Positions 14,530 to 63,882 of a stretch of DNA of 64,000 bases are shown piece after piece. The DNA is taken from NCBI GenBank assembly GCA_026645815.1, contig JAPKMR010000005.1:52720-116719 (forward strand), written 5' to 3'. Position 1 is the stretch's first letter. Every line of letters starts with the position of its first letter. The notes beneath the pieces are model-generated. The model had not been told where the DNA came from, searched no databases, and worked only from the letters and a program-made list of their open reading frames with translations. A program made the position numbers and the translations under genes. This DNA comes from Anaerolineae bacterium. Its GTDB lineage: Bacteria; Chloroflexota; Anaerolineae; B4-G1; SLSP01.

Positions 14530-14646
14530 CGCCGTCCACGAAAATCACAAAAACCACCCTCTGCGTCGCTTTGGCGCGCCAAAGTGTCTAAACGCATGGT
14601 CTCACCAATCTGACCTCTGAACTTCCCGATAATTTGCCCTAGACCC
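14530..14646 (+). repeat. Family A repeat, partial and degraded copy
   Basis: Matches the right half of the 248-bp family A element: it begins inside the central hairpin (CCGTCCACGAAAATCAC), runs through the conserved CTCTGCGTCGCTTTGGCGC...TCTAAACGCATGGTC block, and ends in a decayed terminal repeat (...TTTGCCCTAGACCC). The left half and its terminus are absent. With the alaS promoter and the downstream -10 it fills the 356-bp spacer. Confidence 0.85.
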
Positions 14647-15681: not shown

Positions 15682-15721
15682 TTTTTGGACCCGGCGCCGT
15701 ACCCGGCGCCGGGTCCAAAAA
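15682..15721. terminator. 18-bp hairpin terminator with T-run and A-run rims
   Basis: TTTTTGGACCCGGCGCCG (15682-15699) pairs perfectly with 15704-15721 around a 4-nt loop. The rims make it bidirectional in principle; it ends the PH-domain operon. Confidence 0.85.
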
Positions 15722-16162: not shown

Positions 16163-16273
16163 GGGTGCGTTTTAACTTTGGGGCAAAAGCAAGATGGCTA
16201 TCATACAAATGCCTTTCTCTTCTGCGCCCTGTAGAGGCGCCTGAGATTTTCACCTCTGTTTTGAACCACGCTC
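16163..16273 (+). mobile_element. Family B MITE lacking the central hairpin
   Basis: Begins GGGTGCGTTTTAAC, carries the conserved TTTGGGGCAAAAGCAAGATGG and TGCGCCCTGTAGAGGCGCCTGAGATTTTCACC blocks and ends in a degraded TTGAACCACGCTC. It is about 111 bp against 161 bp for full copies; the difference is the missing central palindrome. A TATACT -10-like element for the next gene lies beyond it at 16313-16318. Confidence 0.8.
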
Positions 16274-17170: not shown

Positions 17171-17217
17171 AGACACAATTTCGGTGCAGCGCGTCGCGCT
17201 GCACCGAAATTGTGTCT
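17171..17217. terminator. 23-bp perfect hairpin between convergent genes
   Basis: Arms 17171-17193 and 17195-17217 are exactly complementary around a single base. It separates the convergent SagB-type and HAS-barrel genes. Confidence 0.75.
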
Positions 17218-35688: not shown

Positions 35689-36027
35689 ATGGAGACACTG
35701 TTTCACCTATGGGTCCCCTATCTGGTGACGGCGGTCGAAATTTGTGGCGCAATAGTCATTGTCCTGGAAGTGCTGCGCACCACTGGCTATTATCTCTACG
35801 GCTTTTTCCGGCGTGAGAGGCTCAACATCCCGCAATTGCGGTTGGCTTTGGGGCAGAGCATGGTGATGGGCCTGGAATTTCAGGTTGCCGCGGATATTCT
35901 CAAGACCGCGCTTTCGCCGCAGTGGAGTAACCTGGCGCTATTAGGCGCTTTGGTTGCATTACGTACGGTGTTGAATTACCTTTTGGAACGCGAACTGGCG
36001 CATATTGCCGATCAATGCCAGATATAG
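35689..36027 (+). CDS. DUF1622-family membrane protein
   Basis: 112 aa, the usual length of this uncharacterised family: helix with the EICGAIVIVLEVLRTTGYYLYGFF segment, the LRLALGQSMVMGLEFQVAADILKTAL motif, and a second helical region with ALVALRTVLNYLLERELAH. ATG 35689 follows GAGGAGAGG. Membrane protein of unknown function. Confidence 0.85.
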   Translation: METLFHLWVPYLVTAVEICGAIVIVLEVLRTTGYYLYGFFRRERLNIPQLRLALGQSMVMGLEFQVAADILKTALSPQWSNLALLGALVALRTVLNYLLERELAHIADQCQI

Positions 36028-36183
36028 TTTCGCCAGGGTGTAATTGATTGCGATAACATCTTGTCACTCGGCCAATAACGCGGACGTCCTTATCTCACCG
36101 GACGCCCGCGTTTTGGTTGTACCGGCACACTCGTATTTGCCCAAGAGAATTTTGGCGCATGCGGGTTAAAGCCCATACCTCGA

Positions 36184-36431
36184 GGGTATACGACAGAATG
36201 TTGGAGAACAATAAGACCGTCATCTTGCAAACAAACCGCATCAGCGAGCAACTTTCTGCGCCGCAGTACTCGGCGCTTCTTTCTGCAAGTGTGATTTTCG
36301 TGGACGGGCGAAGCCCCGTCCACGAAAATCACAAAAAACCACCCTCTGCGTCGCTTTGGCGCGTCAAAGTGTCTAAACGCATGGTCTCACCAATCTGACC
36401 TCTGAATTTCCCAACAATCTGTCCTATACCC
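36184..36431 (+). mobile_element. Family A MITE, complete copy (248 bp)
   Basis: Starts GGGTATACGACAGAAT and ends with the imperfect inverted copy ATCTGTCCTATACCC. It is flanked by 9-bp direct repeats ATACCTCGA (36175-36183) and ATACCTCAA (36432-36440), 8/9 identical, as expected of target duplication. It contains a GCGCCG/CGGCGC hairpin and the central 18-bp hairpin GTGATTTTCGTGGACGGG (36291-36308) with its complement (36315-36332). No transposase is encoded. It fills most of the spacer 36028-36492. Confidence 0.9.
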
Positions 36432-36454
36432 ATACCTCAAACCGAACGTTTCTA

Positions 36455-36463
36455 TGGTATAAT
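36455..36463 (+). promoter_or_regulatory. Extended -10 promoter for the ABC transporter genes
   Basis: TGGTATAAT, 30 bp upstream of the ABC ATPase start and 24 bp beyond the family A element; no good -35, as typical of extended -10 promoters. Confidence 0.65.
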
Positions 36464-36492
36464 GAGAGAGTGTGGTTAGAGGAGGGTTTGAA

Positions 36493-37461
36493 ATGATCGA
36501 GATGGTGAACCTGACCAAGCAGTTTGAGACCGTTTTGGCTGTAGATGGTATCCACCTCACCGTGCAACCGGGCGAAGTGTTGGCATTATTGGGTCCCAAC
36601 GGCGCGGGAAAAACCACTACTGTACGCATGCTCTCAGCAATTTTGAAGCCCACTGCGGGACACGCTACCGTTGCCGGTTATGATGTTGCAAGTCAGAGCC
36701 TTGAGGTCCGTCGCTGCGTGGGTGTGCTCACCGAGTCGCCCGGATTATACCAACGGATGTCCGGACAGGAATACCTCGACTTCTTCGGTGAAGTGCGTGG
36801 GTTGGAGCCACAGGCGCGCCTGGCGCGGATTGCGCACCTGGCAGACTGGTTCGAGATGAGTGGGGTCTTGGACCGCCGCTTGGGAGAATATTCTAAGGGC
36901 ATGGCGCAGAAAGTGGCGTTGATGCGTACCCTGCTGCACGATCCGGCAGTATTATTGCTCGATGAACCCACTTCAGCGATGGACCCGCAAAGCGCTCGCC
37001 TGGTACGCGATACGATCCTGCAGCTCCGCAGCACCCAGCGATCTATCATTATCTGTACCCACAACCTTGTCGAGGCTGAAGAACTTGCCGACCGTATAGC
37101 CATCATTAGACAAGGGCGCATCGTGGTGCAGGGAACTCCCGCAGAGCTGAAAACACGCTTGCTGGGCGCCCCGCTTATGGAAGTGCGTTTTTCGCAACCA
37201 GGGCTTAATGGGGCTGCATCTTTGGTAGCGCGCTTCGCTCAGATAGAAGGTGTGGGGGAGGATACCATGCGGATGGAGTTCATCCGTTATCGCACTGATC
37301 GCCCTGGCGAGGTCAATTCAGCAATCCTGGAAGCCTTGTTGGCAGCGGGAATGCAGGTTTTTTCCCTCAGTGAAGTGCCACAAAGCCTTGAAAGCGTTTA
37401 CCTGCGTGTGATTGCAGGCAGGCAAGGCTCGGCTGAAGGCACAGCGGCAGTAGACGCATAG
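36493..37461 (+). CDS. ABC transporter ATP-binding protein
   Basis: 322 aa, single ABC domain of the ABC-2 exporter (drug/NatA-like) type. LLGPNGAGKTTTVRML (Walker A), YSKGMAQKVALMRTLLHDPAVLLLDEPTSAMDP (variant signature SKGMAQ plus Walker B) and ICTHNLVEAEELADRI (H-loop). ATG 36493 follows GAGGAGGG. Pairs with the permease 163 bp downstream; substrate unknown. Confidence 0.92.
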   Translation: MIEMVNLTKQFETVLAVDGIHLTVQPGEVLALLGPNGAGKTTTVRMLSAILKPTAGHATVAGYDVASQSLEVRRCVGVLTESPGLYQRMSGQEYLDFFGEVRGLEPQARLARIAHLADWFEMSGVLDRRLGEYSKGMAQKVALMRTLLHDPAVLLLDEPTSAMDPQSARLVRDTILQLRSTQRSIIICTHNLVEAEELADRIAIIRQGRIVVQGTPAELKTRLLGAPLMEVRFSQPGLNGAASLVARFAQIEGVGEDTMRMEFIRYRTDRPGEVNSAILEALLAAGMQVFSLSEVPQSLESVYLRVIAGRQGSAEGTAAVDA

Positions 37462-37624
37462 CTGTTTCCTAATCTACACTACTTTTTTGCAGATAGGCGT
37501 GCCCACATCTTAGTTGAGGTGCTGTACGCCCAATGAACGGATGAACTCCATCCGCTTTGTCCTATAGGCCGCTTGTGGAGTAGGCAGTACGGATTCCTGC
37601 GGTGACTATCGAGGGGGGAGGAGT

Positions 37625-39115
37625 ATGGCAATGGAGCAGGATAGAGGTGTACCCGAAGTTTCGTTGCGCGCCTGGTGGGCACAGCTACGAGCTGAGTTGA
37701 AGCCGGCGTTGGTGTTAATGCGTCGCGAGATCAAAGATACCTTGCGCGATTGGCGCATCCTGGCGCCGATTCTGTTGTTGGTCACGGTATTCCCCTTCCT
37801 AGCCAATACCGCGGCAGCAGAGGGTTTGAGTTTTGTCAATCAATACGGCGCGAATCTGCTTATTGAGCGCATGTTCCCCTTCCTGATGTTGGTGGTCGGC
37901 TTTTTCCCCAGTACTTTTTCGCTCGTTATCGCACTTGAGACCTTTGTTGGCGAGAAAGAGCGCCGCAGTCTGGAACCTTTGCTGGCTACACCCCTCACGG
38001 ACCTGCAACTCTACATTGGTAAAACATTGGCGGCTATCATACCCCCGGTTATTGCCAGCTATATCGGCATGATTTTCTACACGTTGTTGCTCGGTTTCAC
38101 TATCGGCTGGTGGCCCACAGTCTCGCTCTTCTTCGTGGCTTTCGTTCTCTCGACGGCACAGGCGTTGGTGATGGTGAGCGCCGCCGTAATTGTCTCGGCT
38201 CAATCCACAAGCGTGCGCGCGGCAAATCTGGTTGCCAGTTTCATCATTATTCCAATGACGCTGTTATTGCAGGCGGAAGCGGGATTGCTGCTCTTTAACA
38301 ACTTTGTTGGCTTGTGGTTGATTGCTCTGGCCTTATTGGTGGTAACGATCCTGTTCATGCGTATGGGCATCGCGCTCTTCAACCGTGAGCGTTTATTGGG
38401 GCAGGAGATTGATCAACTCAACTTCACCAAAGGCTTGCGGGCGTTCTGGGCCGGTTTCTGGCCTCAGAATGGCTTGTGGCATCTCTACCGGTATGAAGTT
38501 CCGCATGTATTGCGTTTGCTGCGACCCCATCTCGTATTTACGATTCTGGTGGCTTTGGGTGGCGGCGCCCTGATCGGATTGTGGGGCGCTCAGCGCTTCC
38601 CATTTCCATCCGGCGCGATGGATTTCTCCCAGTATGCGGACTTGGAAACGTTTTCTGAGGCGGTCGAGGCCTCGGGCTTATTGTCGGGGTTTTCGACGTG
38701 GGCAATTTGGGGACACAATGTGCGTTCGTTATTCACTGCCACCCTGTTGGGCTTTCTCTCCATCGGTGTTGTCGCCGTGCTCCTGTTGGCGGCGCCGATA
38801 GCCATCATTGCCTATCTTGTTCCACAGTTGGGGGGCATAGGTATCAATCCCTGGTTGTTGTTGGCAACCGGCGTATTGCCACATGGTATCTTTGAAATTG
38901 CAGCAGCCCTACTGGTGACAGCCTATGCGCTTAGACTGGGAACCGTGCTCTTGCGTCCGCCGGAGAAAGATGGCGGGATGATGGATCTGGCGCGCGACCT
39001 GGGTCAGTACTGCAAACTTTTCCTGAGTGTGGCTTTGCCGCTGTTGTTGTTAGCCGCATGGATCGAAGCGGAAGTGTCCTCCCGCTTGATGATCAGTTTT
39101 CTCGGCAGTCTCTGA
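37625..39115 (+). CDS. ABC-2 permease fused to a SpoIIM-like domain
   Basis: 496 aa, about ten membrane helices. The N-terminal half is an ABC-2 permease (RREIKDTLRDWRILAPILLLVT..., ETFVGEKERRSLEPLLATPLTDLQLYIGK). The C-terminal half resembles stage II sporulation protein M/DUF95, with GHNVRSLFTATLLGFLSIGV and the hallmark TGVLPHGIFEIAAALL. GGAGG-type site before ATG. It should form an exporter with the preceding ATPase. A fusion of these two membrane modules is worth noting. Confidence 0.85.
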   Translation: MAMEQDRGVPEVSLRAWWAQLRAELKPALVLMRREIKDTLRDWRILAPILLLVTVFPFLANTAAAEGLSFVNQYGANLLIERMFPFLMLVVGFFPSTFSLVIALETFVGEKERRSLEPLLATPLTDLQLYIGKTLAAIIPPVIASYIGMIFYTLLLGFTIGWWPTVSLFFVAFVLSTAQALVMVSAAVIVSAQSTSVRAANLVASFIIIPMTLLLQAEAGLLLFNNFVGLWLIALALLVVTILFMRMGIALFNRERLLGQEIDQLNFTKGLRAFWAGFWPQNGLWHLYRYEVPHVLRLLRPHLVFTILVALGGGALIGLWGAQRFPFPSGAMDFSQYADLETFSEAVEASGLLSGFSTWAIWGHNVRSLFTATLLGFLSIGVVAVLLLAAPIAIIAYLVPQLGGIGINPWLLLATGVLPHGIFEIAAALLVTAYALRLGTVLLRPPEKDGGMMDLARDLGQYCKLFLSVALPLLLLAAWIEAEVSSRLMISFLGSL

Positions 39116-39116
39116 G

Positions 39117-39225
39117 GTGTGCGTTTCAACTTCGGGGTAAAAGTACGATGACTATTGTGCAGGTGTCAGGGCTTTGAGTGATTTTGTGCGGTGGGGCTGC
39201 ACCTCACCGCACAAAATCACCTTTC
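39117..39225 (+). mobile_element. Family B MITE, right-truncated copy
   Basis: Opens GGTGTGCGTTTCAACTT and contains the GGGGTAAAAG block and a central 19-bp hairpin GTGATTTTGTGCGGTGGGG (39178-39196) with its complement to 39220. The right arm after CTTTCTT is missing; the stop of the minus-strand gene lies there. It separates two convergent genes and probably terminates both. Confidence 0.8.
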
Positions 39226-39450
39226 TTATGGTGAGACAATATTTGGTTCGGGGGCGGGGACGACACGGCAGGTGACGTGAATATAAGCGAATTCACCGTG
39301 GGGTGGCAGAAGATCCTTGGTCTCGATAATCTCACACCATACATCGCCCAGGCGCACTTTCTCTCCCACATAGGGCATGGTGGTCTGGTTGACGATAGCG
39401 CCAGGGTGTGCGTGATTGGGAATGACGTAACTGACTTTGTAAATCATCAT
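39226..39450 (-). CDS. Small conserved-looking hypothetical protein (74 aa)
   Basis: MIYKVSYVIPNHAHPGAIVNQTTMPYVGEKVRLGDVWCEI...; predicted beta-rich, no family recognised. The start ATG (39448-39450) overlaps the TGA of the cNMP-binding gene (ATGA arrangement) with GAGGAG upstream, so the two are coupled. Its stop lies at the truncated edge of the family B repeat, so the C-terminus could have been altered by that insertion. Confidence 0.65.
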   Translation of the reverse strand: MMIYKVSYVIPNHAHPGAIVNQTTMPYVGEKVRLGDVWCEIIETKDLLPPHGEFAYIHVTCRVVPAPEPNIVSP

Positions 39451-39905
39451 TCGCACTCCTCACGCTGCTGTAGCGAGATATTGCGGTGCCGTAGTTTGAA
39501 GGCGAGATCGCGTGCCAGGTTGTACATGATCCGGTAACCGGTGAGATGCTCTCGGTCGCAATAATCCAATAGCAGCTTGCCGTGAATGATCAGAACCTCG
39601 GCGCTCTCAGAGACACAGCTGATAGTGGCTGACCGGGGACCGGAATCCAACATGGATATTTCTCCGAAGCCCTGTCCTGCGCCAAGGAGTACCAGGGTGG
39701 GTCCATCGGCAGCGCCGAGGCAACCCACTTTCACTTGCCCTGAGAGCACAATGAAGAATTCATCCCCGGCTTCTTCTTCACGGACGATGATATCGCCGCG
39801 TTGGAAGGTGCGTTTCTCTCCCAGGTCTGCAAGTGCTTGTATCTGCTCAATATCGAGACCAGCAAAAAGATCCGCCGTCCGTAGCACATCAATGGGTGTG
39901 GTCAT
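39447..39905 (-). CDS. Stand-alone cyclic nucleotide-binding domain protein
   Basis: 152 aa. One cNMP domain: FAGLDIEQIQALADLGEKRTFQRGDIIVREEEAGDEFFIVLSGQVKVG, then GFGEISMLDSGPRSATISCVSESAEVL, which contains the phosphate-binding cassette form (GEISMLDSGPRSA). A helical tail follows, but no helix-turn-helix is seen, so it is not a CRP-type activator by itself. ATG 39905 follows AGGAGGAAG. Divergent to the large cyclase-like gene about 800 bp away, which may supply its ligand. Confidence 0.85.
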   Translation of the reverse strand: MTTPIDVLRTADLFAGLDIEQIQALADLGEKRTFQRGDIIVREEEAGDEFFIVLSGQVKVGCLGAADGPTLVLLGAGQGFGEISMLDSGPRSATISCVSESAEVLIIHGKLLLDYCDREHLTGYRIMYNLARDLAFKLRHRNISLQQREECE

Positions 39906-39990
39906 TCTTCCTCCTATGCTGAGGTGAGGATGAGCTGGCTTCGCCACTCTGACTTACAATTCAAGCGCTAACAACTCACCTCTCAATTTC

Positions 39991-40019
39991 ATTATACGCA
40001 TAATTGTGTTTGGGAGCAA
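39991..40019 (-). promoter_or_regulatory. Promoter of the cNMP-binding gene
   Basis: TTGCTC (40014-40019), 17-bp spacer, TATAAT (39991-39996) on the minus strand, about 85 bp upstream of ATG 39905. Confidence 0.7.
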
Positions 40020-40030
40020 GCTCCGTAACT

Positions 40031-40183
40031 GGGGGAATTCCAACTTTGGGGTAAAAGCAAGCTGATTGCCATACCAAAGTTTTCTCTTTAGGTGATTTTT
40101 ACAGCGTGGCGCAGCCACGCTGTAAAAATCACCTTTTTCTTGCGCCCTGTAGGGGTGCCTGAGATTGCGCCCTCAAAGTACAC
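40031..40183 (+). mobile_element. Family B MITE, older copy in tandem
   Basis: Left end decayed (GGGGGAATTCCAACTTTGGG), then the GGTAAAAGCAAGC block and a perfect 21-bp central hairpin (40090-40110 and 40114-40134) whose stem (ACAGCGTGGC) is unlike the neighbouring copy. Next come the GCGCCCTGTAGGGGTGCCTGAG block and a decayed right end (CAAAGTACAC). Abuts the next copy directly. Confidence 0.82.
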
Positions 40184-40344
40184 GGGTGCGTTTCAACTTT
40201 GGGGTAAAAGCAAGACGACTGTTATACAAATGCCTTTCTTTGGTTGATTTTTGGCGGTGGGGCTTTGCCCCACCGCCAAAAATCAACTTTTTCTGCGCCC
40301 TGTAGGGGCGCTTGAGATTTTCACCCCCGTTTTGAAACGCACCC
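40184..40344 (+). mobile_element. Family B MITE, complete copy (161 bp)
   Basis: Perfect 13-bp ends GGGTGCGTTTCAA and TTGAAACGCACCC. Central 21-bp perfect hairpin at 40243-40263/40267-40287 with a TTT loop and stem GATTTTTGGCGGTGGGGC. No target duplication is visible; the left flank is the preceding copy. Confidence 0.9.
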
Positions 40345-40383
40345 ATCGCGAAACAGCGTTTCTCATTTGATTGATTAACCCTC

Positions 40384-40631
40384 GGGTATAGAACAAATTA
40401 TTGGGAAGTTCAGAGGTCAGATTGGTGAGACCATGCGTTTAGACACTTTGACGTGCCAAAGCGACGCAGAGGGTGGTTTTTTGTGATTTTCGTGGACGGG
40501 GGAAGCCCCGTCCACGAAAATCGCGCTTGCAGAAAGAAGCGCCGAGTACGGCGGCGCAGAGCGTTGGTCGCTGATGCGGGTTGCTTGCAAGATGACGGTC
40601 TTATTTTTCTCCAATATTCTGTCGTATACCC
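40384..40631 (-). mobile_element. Family A MITE, complete copy, reverse orientation (248 bp)
   Basis: Exactly the same length as the copy at 36184 and more than 90% identical by eye over the whole element, with both GGGTATA ends. Flanks TTAACCCTC (40375-40383) and TTACCCCCC (40632-40640) agree at 7 of 9 positions, consistent with an aged 9-bp duplication. Together with the two family B copies it fills the 810-bp spacer 39906-40715. Confidence 0.9.
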
Positions 40632-40653
40632 TTACCCCCCTCAAGGGTTGGGG

Positions 40654-40659
40654 TATAAT
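40654..40659 (+). promoter_or_regulatory. -10 element for the cyclase-like gene
   Basis: GGGTATAATG, 57 bp upstream of ATG 40716 and 22 bp beyond the family A element; weak -35. Confidence 0.6.
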
Positions 40660-40715
40660 GCAAAATATTGGAAGATACCCGGCAGTGATTTGTCTGACAC
40701 TCCAGAGGCGGATCA

Positions 40716-43700
40716 ATGAATATCCCTATGTTGCTCCCTTTTGTACCCGTTGACCGGCGACATGCGCTCTATCAGGGCACGCCGCTCCCCGACCGCACAC
40801 GAGGTGCCGCGCTCTTTGCCGATATCTCTGGCTTTACCCCGCTCACTGCGGCCCTTGCTGCCGAGTTAGGCCGTCAGCGTGGCGCAGAGGTAGTGCTGAA
40901 TTATCTCAACCCCATCTATGAAGCGCTCATCACCGAACTGCATACCTATCATGGGAGCGTTATCGGCTTTGCAGGGGATTCTATCACCTGCTGGATTGCG
41001 GAGGAAGCAGAAGAAACGGCAGATGAGTGCTCTGCCCTTCACGCCGCGTCGCTTTCTGCGGTGACGTGTGCTTTCGCCATGCAAAACATCATGGCGCGGA
41101 TGGGGCACGTCATCACGCCAGGGGGAGAAGAAATCACCCTTTCCATCAAAATCGCCGTTGCTGCTGGTCCGGCACGGCGTTTTCTGGTGGGGCACCCCAA
41201 GCAACAGCTATTCGAAGCACTCGCAGGTGTAACGCTGGAACGCATGGCTGCAGCCGAACATCAGGCGGAAAAGGGCGATGTCATGGTTAGCGCAGAAGTA
41301 ACCGAGATTCTGGGTGATGCAATCACCGTCGCCGAATGGCGCACCGAGGCGGAGACCAGGCGCCTCTTCGCCCGCGTAAGCGGACTACCTCGCCCCGCTC
41401 AGCCACATCCCTGGCCCCAGCTGCCGGTCAGCGCCCTGTCGCCGGAGCAACTGCAACCCTGGTTGGCTGCTCCCATCACTGAGCGCCTGCTAAGCGGCGC
41501 GACCTACCTTGCCGAACTGCGCCCGGCAACGTCGCTATTCCTCAAATTCGAGGGCATTGACTATGATGGCGATGATGCCGCCGGGCACAAACTTGATACC
41601 TTTATCCGCTGGGTGCAGGAAATCCTCTACCGTTATGGCGGGACCATGCGCCAGCTGACTATCGGTGATAAGGGCAGTAACCTCCTCGCGGTTTTCGGCG
41701 CACCGGTGGCGCATGATGATGACAACGCCCGAGCCATTGCCGCGGCGCTGGAGCTGCGCACACCTTCTGCCGAGCTACCTTACATCACACCGCCTCAAAT
41801 TGGCGTGAGCCAGGGGTTGGTATGGGCTGGAGCATGCGGCGGGCGCTTGCGCTGTATCTACACCGTGATGGGCGATGAAGTCAACATGGCAGCTCGGCTC
41901 ATGGGGAAGGCGGCGCCTGGGCAGATTCTGGTCAACCAGAGCGTGGCTGATGACACCGTGCGCAGTTATGAGGTCGAATCCCTCGGTCCGATGCAGCTGA
42001 AGGGGCGCGCTGAACCGTTAGCCGTCTCGGCAATCACCGGCAAAAGGCAAGCGCGATTGAGCGCGCTCTTCAACACGCCGTTGGTAGGGCGGGAGGACTT
42101 CCTCAGCAGTATGCACACTCTGCTGCACGCACCGGGTCAGATTCTGCGCCTGGAGGGATCTGCCGGGGTGGGCAAAAGCCACCTGGCAACAGTCTTCGCG
42201 GAACAGGTTGCTGCATCCGGTTGGCAAGTGGCGCTCGGACTATGTCAGAGCATCAGCCAGGGAGCGGCTTATACCCCCTGGCGGCAGCTATTCGCAATGG
42301 CGCTGGGGATAAGCAATACGATGACCCCCGAAGCCCAAGCGGCACAAGTCGTAGAACGGCTTACGAAGGTTAATTCAACCTGGGAAACCAGGCTCCCGCT
42401 GCTCAACGAGCTTCTGGACCTGCCGTTGCCCGAGAATGATATGACCGCAGCACTGGACCCCAAGTTGCGCCAACAAGCGCTCTTTGCATTGGTCGCCGAA
42501 ATCCTGCAAACCTGGGCCAAACGGCAACCATTGCTGCTCATCCTGGAAGACGTACACTGGATGGATGAAGCCTCTGCCGCGTTGACGGTTGCTATCGCGC
42601 GCGCGCTCTATCACAGCCCAGCGGCACTGCTACTGGTGCAACGCCCGCCGCTGGAGGAGCAGCGCATCCTGCCAGAATTGGAGCCGCTCTCGAAACACCA
42701 TCACCTGCTACTCGGCGATCTCTCACCGGAAGGCGTGGGGGCGCTGGTGCGCAATCGTTTGGGTGGCGATGTGGAACAGCTCGCGCTCGATCTGATTTTT
42801 GCCCAGGCGCAGGGAAATCCATTCTTCACCGAGGAACTGGTAGATGCGCTGTGCGAGGCAGGCTATCTGGTGCATAGGGAGGCTGAGGGTAAATGGCAGC
42901 TCTCCGAACCGGCTTTCGAAGCGCTGCTCGATGCGAATTGTATCAGCAAAATAGAGAGCAACTGGCAGATGGTGGAGAACCCGCCCCTGAGCGCCACAGC
43001 CTTCGATATCCCGGATTCCGTACACGGAACGGTATTGGCGCGCATGGATCGCCTGCCAGAGGCACACAAGCTCACCCTGAAGGTTGCCAGCGTCATCGGG
43101 CGTACATTCCAACTGGCTGCTCTGCAATCTGTACACCCCAGCTCGCCGCCGCGCGAGGGGTTGCGCGCGCAGATCGAGGCGATGGGGCAACGTGATTTCG
43201 TGCGGCTGGAAACCGCGCTGGAGGAAAATCCCGTCTACATATTCAAGCACAACACGACGCAAGAAGTGGCTTACGATACGTTGCTCTACGCGCAGCGGCA
43301 AGAGCTCCACGGCGCGGTAGGCGCGTGGTACGAGCAGACTTACGGCGAGGAACGCCCTCTGGAAGCGCTCACGCTCGACTCGCCCCTGGCGGCACATTAT
43401 CCGGTGCTAGCACATCACTGGCGCAATGCCGGACAGCCTGAGCGTGAATGCGTTTACGCGGGACTGGCGGGGGAACAAGCCGCGAAGCAATATGCCAATG
43501 AAAGCGCGCTACGATATTTCAGCCGCGCGCTGGAGCTCACGCCAGAGATGCAGCCTGCCGCACGCTACAAACTACTCCTGGGACGTGAGGGCGTCAACGA
43601 TTGGCTCAGTCGCCGCGACCAGCAAGCTGCCGATTTGGAAGCGCTCGTAGCGTTGAGCGACACGCTTGCCGACGAGGCCAGGCGCGCGACCGTGCAGCTC

Positions 43701-47900: not shown

Positions 47901-50277
47901 CAGGATACCATTTGCCGCCGCCATCAGGTGAGAAGAAGGCGCGAACGTATCCCACCGGATCACTCTCGCCATCATAAAGGTAGTAAGCAATGTCAATATC
48001 GCCGGAGAGGATTTCTGCGGAAGTGTAAAACGCACCTTCGGCAGTTAAACCCGGATAGCCCATGCGGATGGTTGGTGGGGTATTCACCAACCACTTGGGC
48101 CAGCGGATGTTGTTGAGATAGACCGCGTTCTGTTCATCCATATTGCCCGCGACGATGTCGGGCAAACCATCATCATCCATGTCGCCGATAGCCACGCTGA
48201 GCGTGTTCTCAATAGCTTCGCCAAAGGTTGCTGCAGGCGTTGTCCAATTGAATAGACCCACGCCATCGTTGAGGTAGACGGCATTCTGTTCGCCATTGTT
48301 GCCCACCACAATATCCAAATCGCTATCAGCATCGAGATCGGCAACCGCTACGGCATACGTCCAATCCGCACCAGGACCAAAAGGCCGGTTGATCGGGAAA
48401 CCTGCAGCGCCGTCATTGAAGTAGACGGAATTCTGCTGTCCCTCATTGCCCACAACAACATCCAAAGCACCATCAGCATTGAGGTCACCCACAGTGACAC
48501 TACGGGTCCAATCGTCCTCCGGACCAAAGGGTAAACGTGTCGCGAAGTTGCCGTTGCCATCGTTAAGATAGATGGCATTTTGTTCATTGTAGTTACCTGC
48601 AACAATATCGAGGTCGCCATCGTTATCGAGGTCGCCCAGTGCAATGCCGAAGGTCCATTCATCGCCGATGCCAAACGGTCGCGCGGCGGCGAAAGCGCCT
48701 GCGCCGGCATTCAGGTAAATCCGGTTAAAACCGCTCTGATAGCCTGCAACTACATCGAGATCATTGTCGCCGTCCAAATCCCCTACCGCGATGGCCTGAG
48801 TTGTATCGCCCGCTGCACCAAAGGTGGCGCCAGACGAGAAATCTCCGCTGCCATCATTGTGGTAGACACGCCCAATGACACCGAGGTTTCCCACAATGAG
48901 GTCCAGATCGTAATCGCCATCCATATCGCCCAAGGCGACGGTAGAGATCAATCCTGCTCCTGCGGTGAAACCGGTGGAGAATTCCCCCATGCCATCGCCC
49001 TCATATACCGTCAGACCGTTACCGGCATCCCCTAGCACCAAATCGAGATAGCCATCGCCGGTAAGGTCGCCGGCGGCGATGCTGCGCGTGACGTCAGTAT
49101 CGGCGCCAAAGGGAAGCACCGTCGGGAAACCGCCACCACCGTCGTTGAGGTAGACCATGTTCTGCTCGACGCTGGTCCCCACGGCGATGTCCAAGGCCCC
49201 GTCGCCATCAAAGTCGCCGGCTGAGATTGCCTGTGCACTATCTGACCCCGGACCGAATGGTCGAGACGATGGAAAATCGCCGGTTCCAGTATTGAAATAG
49301 ACCTGGTTAAGCTCCAGGTTGTTGCCGACCACGATATCCACATCACCATCACCGTCCATATCCGCAGCTGTCACACTGGTCGTTTGAGCGGGCGTGATGT
49401 TCAGCGTAGCACCAAGCGCAAACGCTCCCGCGCCATCATTAAGATAAACCTCTGTCGCAGCGCCATTGTTGCCCACGACGATATCCATGCTCTGATCGCC
49501 GTCAAAGTCAGCAACTGCCAGACTGGCATCCTGACCATCGCCGAAAGTGTCGAGAAAATCGAAAGCGCCTGCCTGGTCATTGATGTAAAGCCGGTTGGGA
49601 CCATTGGCGCTGCCGATGATGATATCCAGCCAACCATCATCATCCAAATCCGCCAGAGCCACGCTGGAAGTCGCATTTGCCGTAAGTGACGCTGCCAATG
49701 TGAACGCATTGCCCGCGTTGTTGTGGAAGACCAGATCCGCGCCTACAGCAGTGCCGCAGACCAGATCAAAGTAACCATCACCATCCACATCTCCCATCGC
49801 CACGCTAGTCATTCCATAGGCTGCACTGCCGAAGGATACCTCTGCCGTGAAATCGCCCGTACCATCGTTCAGGTAAACCACGCCGGTGTCGCCGGCGCGA
49901 ATCACGACCAGATCCAGTGCACCATCGGCATCACTATCACCCACCGCAAGAGCTAGCACATCATCCTCAGGATCGCCAACCGCCAATTCAGCCGGGAAAT
50001 CGCCCCGACCATTGTTGAGATAGAGGGAACTACCATCCTCGTTACCCGCAACGATGTCCATGTCCCCATCGCCGTCCATATCGCCGACAGCGATGGCTGA
50101 GGTAAGGCTATCGCCAGGGCCGAAGGGGAGTGGTTTGATAAAACCCGGCGTCCCCGCCAGAACTCCAGGAAGGGCGATAAGGAAAAAAGTTACCAGAATC
50201 ATAACGCCAGCCAACATCGCTGCCAACGCCAATCGGCGCACACCATGCGATCCCGGAAAAATCTCAGCTGCTTTCAT
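44977..50277 (-). CDS. Secreted FG-GAP/VCBS repeat protein with HELSH metalloprotease-like region (1766 aa)
   Basis: A signal sequence or anchor (ALAAMLAGVMILVTFFLIALPGVLA) is followed by 14 FG-GAP/VCBS repeats of about 47 residues. Each has a calcium-loop D-x-D-x-D-G motif (GDMDGDGDMDIVAGN type) and a YLNDG turn, likely forming two propeller-type domains. A beta-rich region follows. Near residue 1100 AFAHELSHYLLYLPDNYIG contains an HExxH-type zinc site, so this part may be a metallopeptidase. The C-terminus ends EYRVFLPLVLRNINP, a tail pattern seen in many secreted Chloroflexota proteins. ATG 50277 has AAGGAGGAAAC upstream; the frame upstream to 50460 looks non-coding. Confidence 0.85.
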   Translation of the reverse strand: MKAAEIFPGSHGVRRLALAAMLAGVMILVTFFLIALPGVLAGTPGFIKPLPFGPGDSLTSAIAVGDMDGDGDMDIVAGNEDGSSLYLNNGRGDFPAELAVGDPEDDVLALAVGDSDADGALDLVVIRAGDTGVVYLNDGTGDFTAEVSFGSAAYGMTSVAMGDVDGDGYFDLVCGTAVGADLVFHNNAGNAFTLAASLTANATSSVALADLDDDGWLDIIIGSANGPNRLYINDQAGAFDFLDTFGDGQDASLAVADFDGDQSMDIVVGNNGAATEVYLNDGAGAFALGATLNITPAQTTSVTAADMDGDGDVDIVVGNNLELNQVYFNTGTGDFPSSRPFGPGSDSAQAISAGDFDGDGALDIAVGTSVEQNMVYLNDGGGGFPTVLPFGADTDVTRSIAAGDLTGDGYLDLVLGDAGNGLTVYEGDGMGEFSTGFTAGAGLISTVALGDMDGDYDLDLIVGNLGVIGRVYHNDGSGDFSSGATFGAAGDTTQAIAVGDLDGDNDLDVVAGYQSGFNRIYLNAGAGAFAAARPFGIGDEWTFGIALGDLDNDGDLDIVAGNYNEQNAIYLNDGNGNFATRLPFGPEDDWTRSVTVGDLNADGALDVVVGNEGQQNSVYFNDGAAGFPINRPFGPGADWTYAVAVADLDADSDLDIVVGNNGEQNAVYLNDGVGLFNWTTPAATFGEAIENTLSVAIGDMDDDGLPDIVAGNMDEQNAVYLNNIRWPKWLVNTPPTIRMGYPGLTAEGAFYTSAEILSGDIDIAYYLYDGESDPVGYVRAFFSPDGGGKWYPAVAASGVITQDLEASPWPTGTLQIYTWDVNASGFFGRSDNVVFRIVAYPDFAPVENGLPGPYQWPYAAAATYPFRVRGNQIRVMQGAQPMVGAQVFHFQSEALRAAPYANSAGQSYFTDAQGYLQGRGELHLGDRLVAIAPISATNTYTLYYSSGVPTASGLSAHTVTALGVQTLNVASNHPLLLFNLDLSLEWDARNDGTFLADLDEAIKRASEVLYDVSDGQIAIGEIRVHQERAQWLSSDVVMYAQNGIRPRASMGGVTDELRDDLGVSGAITNAYGPGQIRMGPNWDPFGQSLAELSADWQRAFAHELSHYLLYLPDNYIGVQDGLPISTDCRGSFMTSTYDDAYSEFLTRTGWVGECLDTVAAHLLDRTDWETVRTFYGDLVQPGALNTGPSLLPLEVTRVRVQAPLTPAITLPPAFFDLRKATGELLAVPRAQGYLFQTQGTTALTDDSVVALGATVGGGDRVKVRGATPGDRLCVFGPYNEATNAATMGCIPALQAGQRSVSVATVSDWQPLIVVNAVTSQTWAITVTLKTSVSGLNVQIYPAYGAADGGATNAPWTAMTAKPGNPLVYTRQMVLDNPSFEGFVRVWVPGQEGQREALTQIFLSPPWGPNQGAFVGGGNYRAWGANSRQLGAPVASGDGQVTIFNTDNLFAEAGTTSLQALSELPNLPSWLTPVGKGYRFVSSVDTPRALMFNYHQRDVPEGYEHTIHLHFQPEGSSGWQRLPTTLDTDHNQATAQMPGNGEGTYALLSTLDVPLYGPGWNLFGYLNLPRRTVADALASIAGHYTQIATYDPLTTAQWRIYDVAVTTEHPEYASLVNDLTYLESPRGYWIHATDSITLFLKVSAPGELNPQSAQAAALPPATFYGLVTPIGGFTPQAGLPVTTTINGVTCGRGTVVAWAGGLAYRAMAVSDTGDGCGADGRVVRFTVGGHLYPQTAEWKNSRAWYVPLGGSPEYRVFLPLVLRNINP

Positions 50278-52738: not shown

Positions 52739-52852
52739 GGGTGCGTTTCAAAACGAGGGTGAAACTCTCCTGCGCCCCTACAGGGCGCAGGAGAGTATTG
52801 ATTTTTGGCGGCGGGGCTTTGCCCCGCCGCCAAAAATCAATCAAAGAAACTG
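52739..52852 (-). mobile_element. Family B MITE, truncated, reverse orientation
   Basis: Begins GGGTGCGTTTCAAAACG (the right end of the family), with an extra small hairpin around CTCCTGCGCC. A perfect 21-bp central hairpin (52797-52817/52821-52841, GGCGGCGGGGC stem) follows, and the sequence ends soon after CAATCAAAGAAA. About 50 bp of the other arm are missing next to the glycosyltransferase stop, so the hairpin is probably that gene's terminator. Confidence 0.85.
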
Positions 52853-63624: not shown

Positions 63625-63785
63625 GGGTGCGTTTCAAAACGGGGGCGAAAATCTCAGGCGCTCCCACAGGGCGCAGAAAAAATTGATTTTTGGCGGTGGG
63701 GCAAAGCCCCACCGCCAAAAATCAATCAAAGAAAGGTGTTTGTATGATGATCATCTTGCTTTTGCCTCAAAGTTGAAACGCACCC
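63625..63785 (-). mobile_element. Family B MITE, complete copy with target duplication (161 bp)
   Basis: Ends GGGTGCGTTTCAA and TTGAAACGCACCC. Identical length to the copy at 40184. Perfect 8-bp flanking repeats GAAGGAAA (63617-63624 and 63786-63793). Central 21-bp perfect hairpin 63682-63702/63706-63726 with AAA loop. Reverse orientation. Confidence 0.92.
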
Positions 63786-63882
63786 GAAGGAAAGAGGGTC
63801 TGCAAACGGACGAAGGGGGGTCCTTTTTTATGTTTTCGAGGCACCCTACAGCCAATCATTTGTCCTAGATTCCAAAACCTGC

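Follow-up and report, generated by a model that had tools for sequence, protein, structure and literature searches.

The hairpin with a GATTTT/AAAATC rim that recurs in the Anaerolineae genome studied here forms the centre of two MITE families, in which it is inherited. The concerted changes of its two arms and the flips of its loop most likely result from polymerase template switching during replication, a reading to which we assign a probability of about two in three. In such an event, the nascent strand would take the other arm as its template, and a change in one arm would thereby be passed on to its partner (arm homogenisation); if synthesis crossed to the opposite strand and ran through the loop, the loop would be left inverted (spacer inversion). 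As a minority event, the whole stem may now and then be replaced from the hairpin of another copy, or of the other family, via the GATTTT/AAAATC rim. Template switching is favoured because arm homogenisation and spacer inversion are its two published marks, as described in a study on Saccharomyces (PMC8604942), and the two marks are found here, with an arm homogenisation that goes beyond that of the terminal repeats of the same copies.

The window (the whole stretch of DNA analysed, 64,000 nucleotides) is part of a draft genome with 227 contigs and a size of 4.94 Mb, hereafter G000. The initial annotation had proposed two MITE families with one kind of hairpin, a view that is borne out; the ends of A and B differ, and hybrid hairpins exist. 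MITE B is a short inverted-repeat element of ~160 bp with the ends GGGTGCGTTTCAA, present in many copies, and MITE A is ~249 bp long with the ends GGGTATACGACAG. The following copies and hairpins lie in the window:

14549-14646, + strand: partial MITE A copy
16163-16273, + strand: full-length MITE B without hairpin, target duplication 7 of 8
36183-36431, + strand: full MITE A copy, hairpin 36290-36333 with stem CGTGGACGGG, target duplication 8 of 9
39117-39220, + strand: MITE B with only the left half recognisable, hairpin 39178-39220 with stem GTGCGGTGGGG
40031-40183, + strand: old MITE B copy, ~30% diverged, adjoining the 40184 copy, hairpin 40090-40134
40090-40134, no strand: hairpin of the old B copy, stem ACAGCGTGGC, loop GCA
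40184-40344, + strand: full MITE B copy with hairpin, no target duplication here
40243-40287, no strand: hairpin with a 21-bp stem and loop TTT, stem subtype GGCGGTGGGGC
40384-40632, - strand: full MITE A copy, hairpin 40483-40524
52739-52849, - strand: MITE B with only the right half recognisable, hairpin 52797-52841
52764-52796, no strand: small second palindrome extended to a 14-bp stem, one arm having been rewritten to complement its partner
63625-63786, - strand: full MITE B copy with 8-bp target duplication, hairpin 63682-63726

Terminal repeats and target duplications mark both families as MITEs. Of the 59 full MITE B copies found in ~1.92 Mb of G000 (~39% of the genome), 27 are bordered by an 8-bp duplication of the target in which 7 or 8 positions agree (mismatched flank pairs reach this in 5 of 3422 cases), as are 32 of 55 copies in the related genomes G002 and G003; a 9-bp duplication (8 or 9 of 9 matching) accompanies 9 of the 20 scored A copies. 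Insertion is also documented by empty sites, aligned at four loci: the B copy at L215 of G002 is absent from the G000 locus L174, whose flanks are 93-94% identical and which keeps one copy of the target region, not letter-perfect; L197/L152 is similar to this case, and L220/L098 and L254/L150 are less clean. Seven full-length B copies have no hairpin (six share one junction, and the seventh is shorter by a base), among them the copy at 16163-16273, which the initial annotation had rightly described as lacking it. Three of the seven (window 16163, L135 and L163) have a target duplication of 7 or 8 of 8; the hairpin is thus dispensable for movement.

MITE B matches were found in 4 of 24 genomes of the family (G000, G002, G003 and, weakly, G013); the element was present in three of the five genomes of the genus examined and was not found in the same-genus genomes G001 and G004. 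The stricter GTGATTTT rim pattern has 2 sites in one of four genomes of other genera. Most intergenic places common to two genomes hold separate B insertions, and one hairpin is truly shared. Among the separate insertions, L085:9212 in G000 and L233:659 in G002 occupy one and the same intergenic region in two species, which probably reflects target hot spots. A further repeat family (GTAGCAG..GCGTTACACCCCGCACACTGCCC), invaded by MITE B copies, was observed at L031 (C11:1-260) and L108 (C13:640-1110); no alleles were found within the G000 draft, the apparent pair L031/L108 merely having this other repeat in common. A MITE B copy also sits at the rim of an A-like hairpin in G002 (L203:1431), at a place where the matching G000 locus (L118:7600-7845) has a hybrid A hairpin.

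The pattern GATTTT-N15-45-AAAATC, counted over the whole genome, has 277 sites in G000 against 3 of the reversed pattern, which excludes chance as the origin of the hairpins; 276 sites were counted in G002 and 115 in G003, and RNA folding gave z scores of -7.1 to -9.1 in the four stretches tested. In the window, the hairpins start at 36290, 39178, 40090, 40243, 40483, 52797 and 63682, those within 39178-40287 lying between open reading frames, and no Rfam match at gathering score was obtained in window 36000-41000. The perfect palindrome claimed for the full B copies stands for 40090-40134, 40243-40287, 52797-52841 and 63682-63726, which have 21-bp stems with a 3-nt loop, but not for 39178-39220, which has a 16-bp stem and an irregular centre. 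Likewise, the GTGATTTT/AAAATCAC rim attributed to family A is present in the hairpins 36290-36333 and 40483-40524, the latter with one rim mismatch.

The inheritance of the hairpin is apparent from the comparison of stem types with trees built from the flanks, the hairpin removed. With regard to the two main B subtypes in 29 G000 copies, the flank tree, in which branch support is weak as in all these trees, requires 3 changes, against 9.5 after shuffling (0 of 1000 as low), and again 3 changes in the 200 of 1000 bootstrap trees examined. When all seven B stem classes are considered (59 copies, with 3 of the 10 copies in the class "none" not truly hairpin-less), 17 changes are needed against 33 shuffled; the figures are 6 against 9.8 for the B stem in G002 (18 copies) and 4 against 7.6 for the two stem types of family A (22 copies). 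The stem type is therefore inherited with the flanks in B and A, and the insertion or replacement of a hairpin module finds no support as the main process. The initial annotation had favoured replacement, palindrome conversion or separate insertion of a hairpin; of these three, palindrome conversion is the one that fits our results. Nor do the stem interiors differ completely between copies, as had been stated: the stems at 40253 and 52807 are one paired change apart, and the most different stem (40101) lies inside copy 40031, whose flanks are themselves ~30% off any other full copy, so that the contrast between 40101 and 40253 is that of an old copy with a young one.

Whole stems have been exchanged, in some cases between the two families, but this seems to be the minority process. 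The copy L100:9354, with flanks 3.5% from those of window 40184, has another stem type and another loop; hybrid hairpins, seen in family A and in G002, have one arm of each type (L118:7706, L119:561, L165:6828, L009:1499 and L077:1503, with mirrored hybrids at L197 and L192 of G002), and at L012, L084 and L120 a B half on one side of the hairpin is joined to A-like sequence on the other. These cases, together with the few sister pairs with many paired changes described below, would be expected if the hairpin were a module exchanged between copies and families, loops included, by recombination or conversion through the common rims. As the general explanation we consider such exchange unlikely, though with a real chance of being right: the stem type tracks the flanks in both families, of the 50 kinds of paired change 36 are private to one copy of their stem type, with no donor within the ~39% of the genome covered, and a flipped loop on an unchanged stem would require a flipped-loop donor every time.

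Evidence for template switching at the arms comes from paired changes. From 114 full B copies in three genomes, we removed 3 containing N and 12 whose stem could not be used; the remaining 99, with usable arms, provided 38 disjoint sister pairs, whose arms were compared with gaps, since the ungapped version overcounted paired changes (131 to 17). The hairpin arms show 40 paired and 33 one-arm changes, and the 13-bp terminal repeats of the same copies, used as a control (35 of the 38 pairs usable), show 1 paired and 51 one-arm changes (Fisher odds ratio 62, p 2e-11, the events being not fully independent). At least one paired change occurs in 20 of 38 pairs for the hairpin and in 1 of 35 for the terminal repeats. 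Only 0 to 4 matches remain when the partner position is slid by 1-3 positions, and re-dealing the arms among the pairs gives a mean of 2.3 paired changes, with a maximum of 16 in 2000. The claim that point mutation alone is unlikely is upheld by these numbers, as independent point mutation would give far fewer paired changes. Restricted to the full G000 copies, the contrast is weaker (odds ratio 6.3, p 0.0012): the stem has 11 paired and 27 unpaired changes, and the terminal repeats have 5 and 77. Five of the 38 pairs, with at least 3 paired changes each, hold 21 of the 40 and look like swaps of the whole stem; when they are left out, the count is 19 paired and 27 one-arm changes. The only orthologous insertion with a hairpin in both genomes (L096:2858 and L256:6426) shows one paired change, several unpaired ones and no loop flip.

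The distribution of these changes over flank divergence (up to 0.05, 0.05-0.10 and 0.10-0.15) is informative. Paired hairpin changes number 2, 22 and 16 in the three bins, one-arm hairpin changes 11, 11 and 11, and one-arm changes in the terminal repeats 7, 19 and 25. The one-arm hairpin changes thus look transient, because they stay level while paired changes rise, and a level count, as opposed to the growing count of the terminal repeats, is what would be expected if one-arm changes were copied to the other arm or erased. In the closest pairs (up to 5% flank divergence), the 11 one-arm against 2 paired changes speak against arm copying. Stepwise compensatory change tracking the flanks, which the initial annotation had regarded as the sign of ordinary drift, is seen in part: few paired changes occur in the closest pairs and many in the more diverged ones, and one-arm changes are level.

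The scarcity of paired changes below 5% flank divergence could also reflect selection for an intact stem, whether needed for transposition, termination or the stability of an RNA, with compensatory substitutions fixed stepwise. The stem arms of full G000 copies, at 2.6% per arm off their type consensus against 6.5% for the terminal repeats, agree with this, and assignment to the nearest type flatters the stem in that comparison. We find such selection quite improbable as the explanation, because the hairpin-less copies at window 16163, L135 and L163 carry target duplications and because copies with a single recognisable half are not poorer in paired changes: 32 paired and 35 one-arm changes were counted in 40 such copies (10 of the 32 in three copies of a catch-all stem type), and full copies show 11 paired and 26 one-arm changes (50 copies) and the others 17 and 20 (17 copies). 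Selection explains neither the random orientation of the loop nor the rewriting of several bases in the small second palindrome of B. At 52764-52796, this rewriting spans ~8 bases of one arm, and at L013, L030 and L080 it is the opposite arm that has been rewritten, so multi-base rewriting goes in both directions; the second palindrome displays the same arm-copying pattern as the main hairpin in a coarser form.

The orientation of the loop is random relative to the flanks, with one quick tree dissenting. In G000 (29 copies), the orientation changes 9 times on the flank tree and 9.8 times after shuffling, with 8-11 changes in 200 bootstrap trees, and a first quick tree gave 10 against 9.8; another quick tree, with 51 copies, gave 6 against 9.8 (8 of 1000 shuffles as low), so that the loop may carry some inherited signal. 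The values are 5 against 5.4 in G002 (22 copies), and 3 against 3.0 (8 copies) and 2 against 2.5 (7 copies) in family A. The copies L158 and L141 of G000 have identical whole flanks and opposite loops, each with its own target duplication, and L191 and L185 of G003 are identical over 96 end bases and have opposite loops. In the 15 pairs with up to 5% flank divergence, the loop is flipped in 6, the same in 6 and different in 3.

The main doubt about the flips is that all the genomes are drafts, in which palindromes within repeats can have their loops misplaced by assembly. Thus, the flips, and perhaps some of the paired arms, might be assembly errors at palindromes inside near-identical repeats, in drafts of 227 to 460 contigs where several contigs end inside these repeats and three G003 copies have N runs in the hairpin centre. 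We hold this to be very improbable as a general cause, given that the same pattern is present in three genome assemblies and two MITE families, and that the stem subtype, located within a few bases of the loop, tracks the flanks. In addition, the k87 in the contig names of a record matching G002, which from assembler naming habits we take to be a k-mer size of 87, would, if so read, span the 45-nt hairpin. In the three G003 copies (L236, L238 and L249), 10 to 13 N stand exactly at the hairpin centre, due to sequencing or assembly trouble or to masking.

As another way of producing both patterns, the hairpin might be opened and rejoined either way at each jump, by transposition or its repair, with the loop reset at random and the arms re-copied, a reading that we regard as rather unlikely; if it were true, the MITE centre would be a palindrome proofreading itself through its own mobility. 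Under template switching in replication, which we prefer, a genome full of near-identical hairpins would be a natural assay of this process in a bacterium, in which loop orientation would count inversions, paired changes would count arm copying and the terminal repeats would give the background. Moreover, paired ("compensatory") changes in bacterial stems would then not need to signal selection for RNA structure.

A number of reports bear on this model. Template switching at short inverted repeats has been described for Saccharomyces genes, with arm homogenisation and spacer inversion, the inversion being ascribed there to an inter-strand switch (PMC8604942). As there, the arms homogenise, a spacer only a few bases long and flanked by perfect arms is inverted, and several bases can change per event. 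The yeast study deals with 39 protein-coding genes and 10 spacer inversions, whereas here one hairpin kind occurs in hundreds of copies in bacterial MITEs; half of the comparable loops are flipped already below 5% flank divergence, and the mechanism is deduced from sequence (PMC8604942). A template-switch origin and upkeep of RNA stems has been proposed for paired changes, and, as in that work, "compensatory" pairs are explained here by copying from the other arm; that work concerns RNA genes, in contrast to the intergenic mobile repeats of this study, which include copies without one recognisable half (PMC8794818). The elements resemble the bacterial MITEs of a recent review in being short, with terminal repeats, target duplications and possible strong secondary structure, and the words "hairpin", "template switch" and "gene conversion" are absent from the part of its text consulted (PMC10969869). 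In the open-access literature (subscription papers being outside the scope), we found no paper joining MITE hairpins with template switching.

REP elements with a Y1 transposase are likewise intergenic palindromes in many copies. Unlike them, the present hairpin forms the middle of a longer element that duplicates its target, and a link with a Y1 transposase, which the initial annotation had proposed to look for, found no support: no GATTTT..AAAATC hairpin lies at the five Y1 loci (L001-L005, 2.8-3.3 kb searched at each; five matches, four above the cut-off). The proposed role as a bidirectional terminator also had to be abandoned, since in window 36000-41000 a T tail beyond the hairpin exists on one strand only. 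Inside the hairpin, the G+C stem has a T run before it and an A run after it, opposite to the order in an intrinsic terminator, and a T run beyond the whole hairpin is present only on the + side of the element; a scan of 36000-41000 gave terminator-like calls on the whole hairpins 39178, 40090 and 40243 on the + strand only.

An autonomous partner was not found in the ~39% of the genome covered nor at 13 transposase loci: no pair of MITE ends surrounds the 12 DDE_Tnp_1 loci and the one ISL3 locus, with one end-like site at four of them, and the nine spans of 0.5-4 kb that are bounded by B or A ends have at best a target match of 3 of 8. At L268:1190 (C22), a MITE B copy adjoins a DDE_Tnp_1 gene; a second end was not found there, and the proximity is probably due to chance. 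Other repeats were also observed. A MITE B right half with a quite different hairpin (TTTTTGGACGCGGCGCCG..) is located at L085:18729-18850, and a similar hairpin at window 15682-15721. A perfect 23-bp stem with a 1-nt loop, with no relation to the GATTTT rim, is found at window 17171-17217, and coding tandem repeats with a step near 147 bp occupy window 48101-50098.
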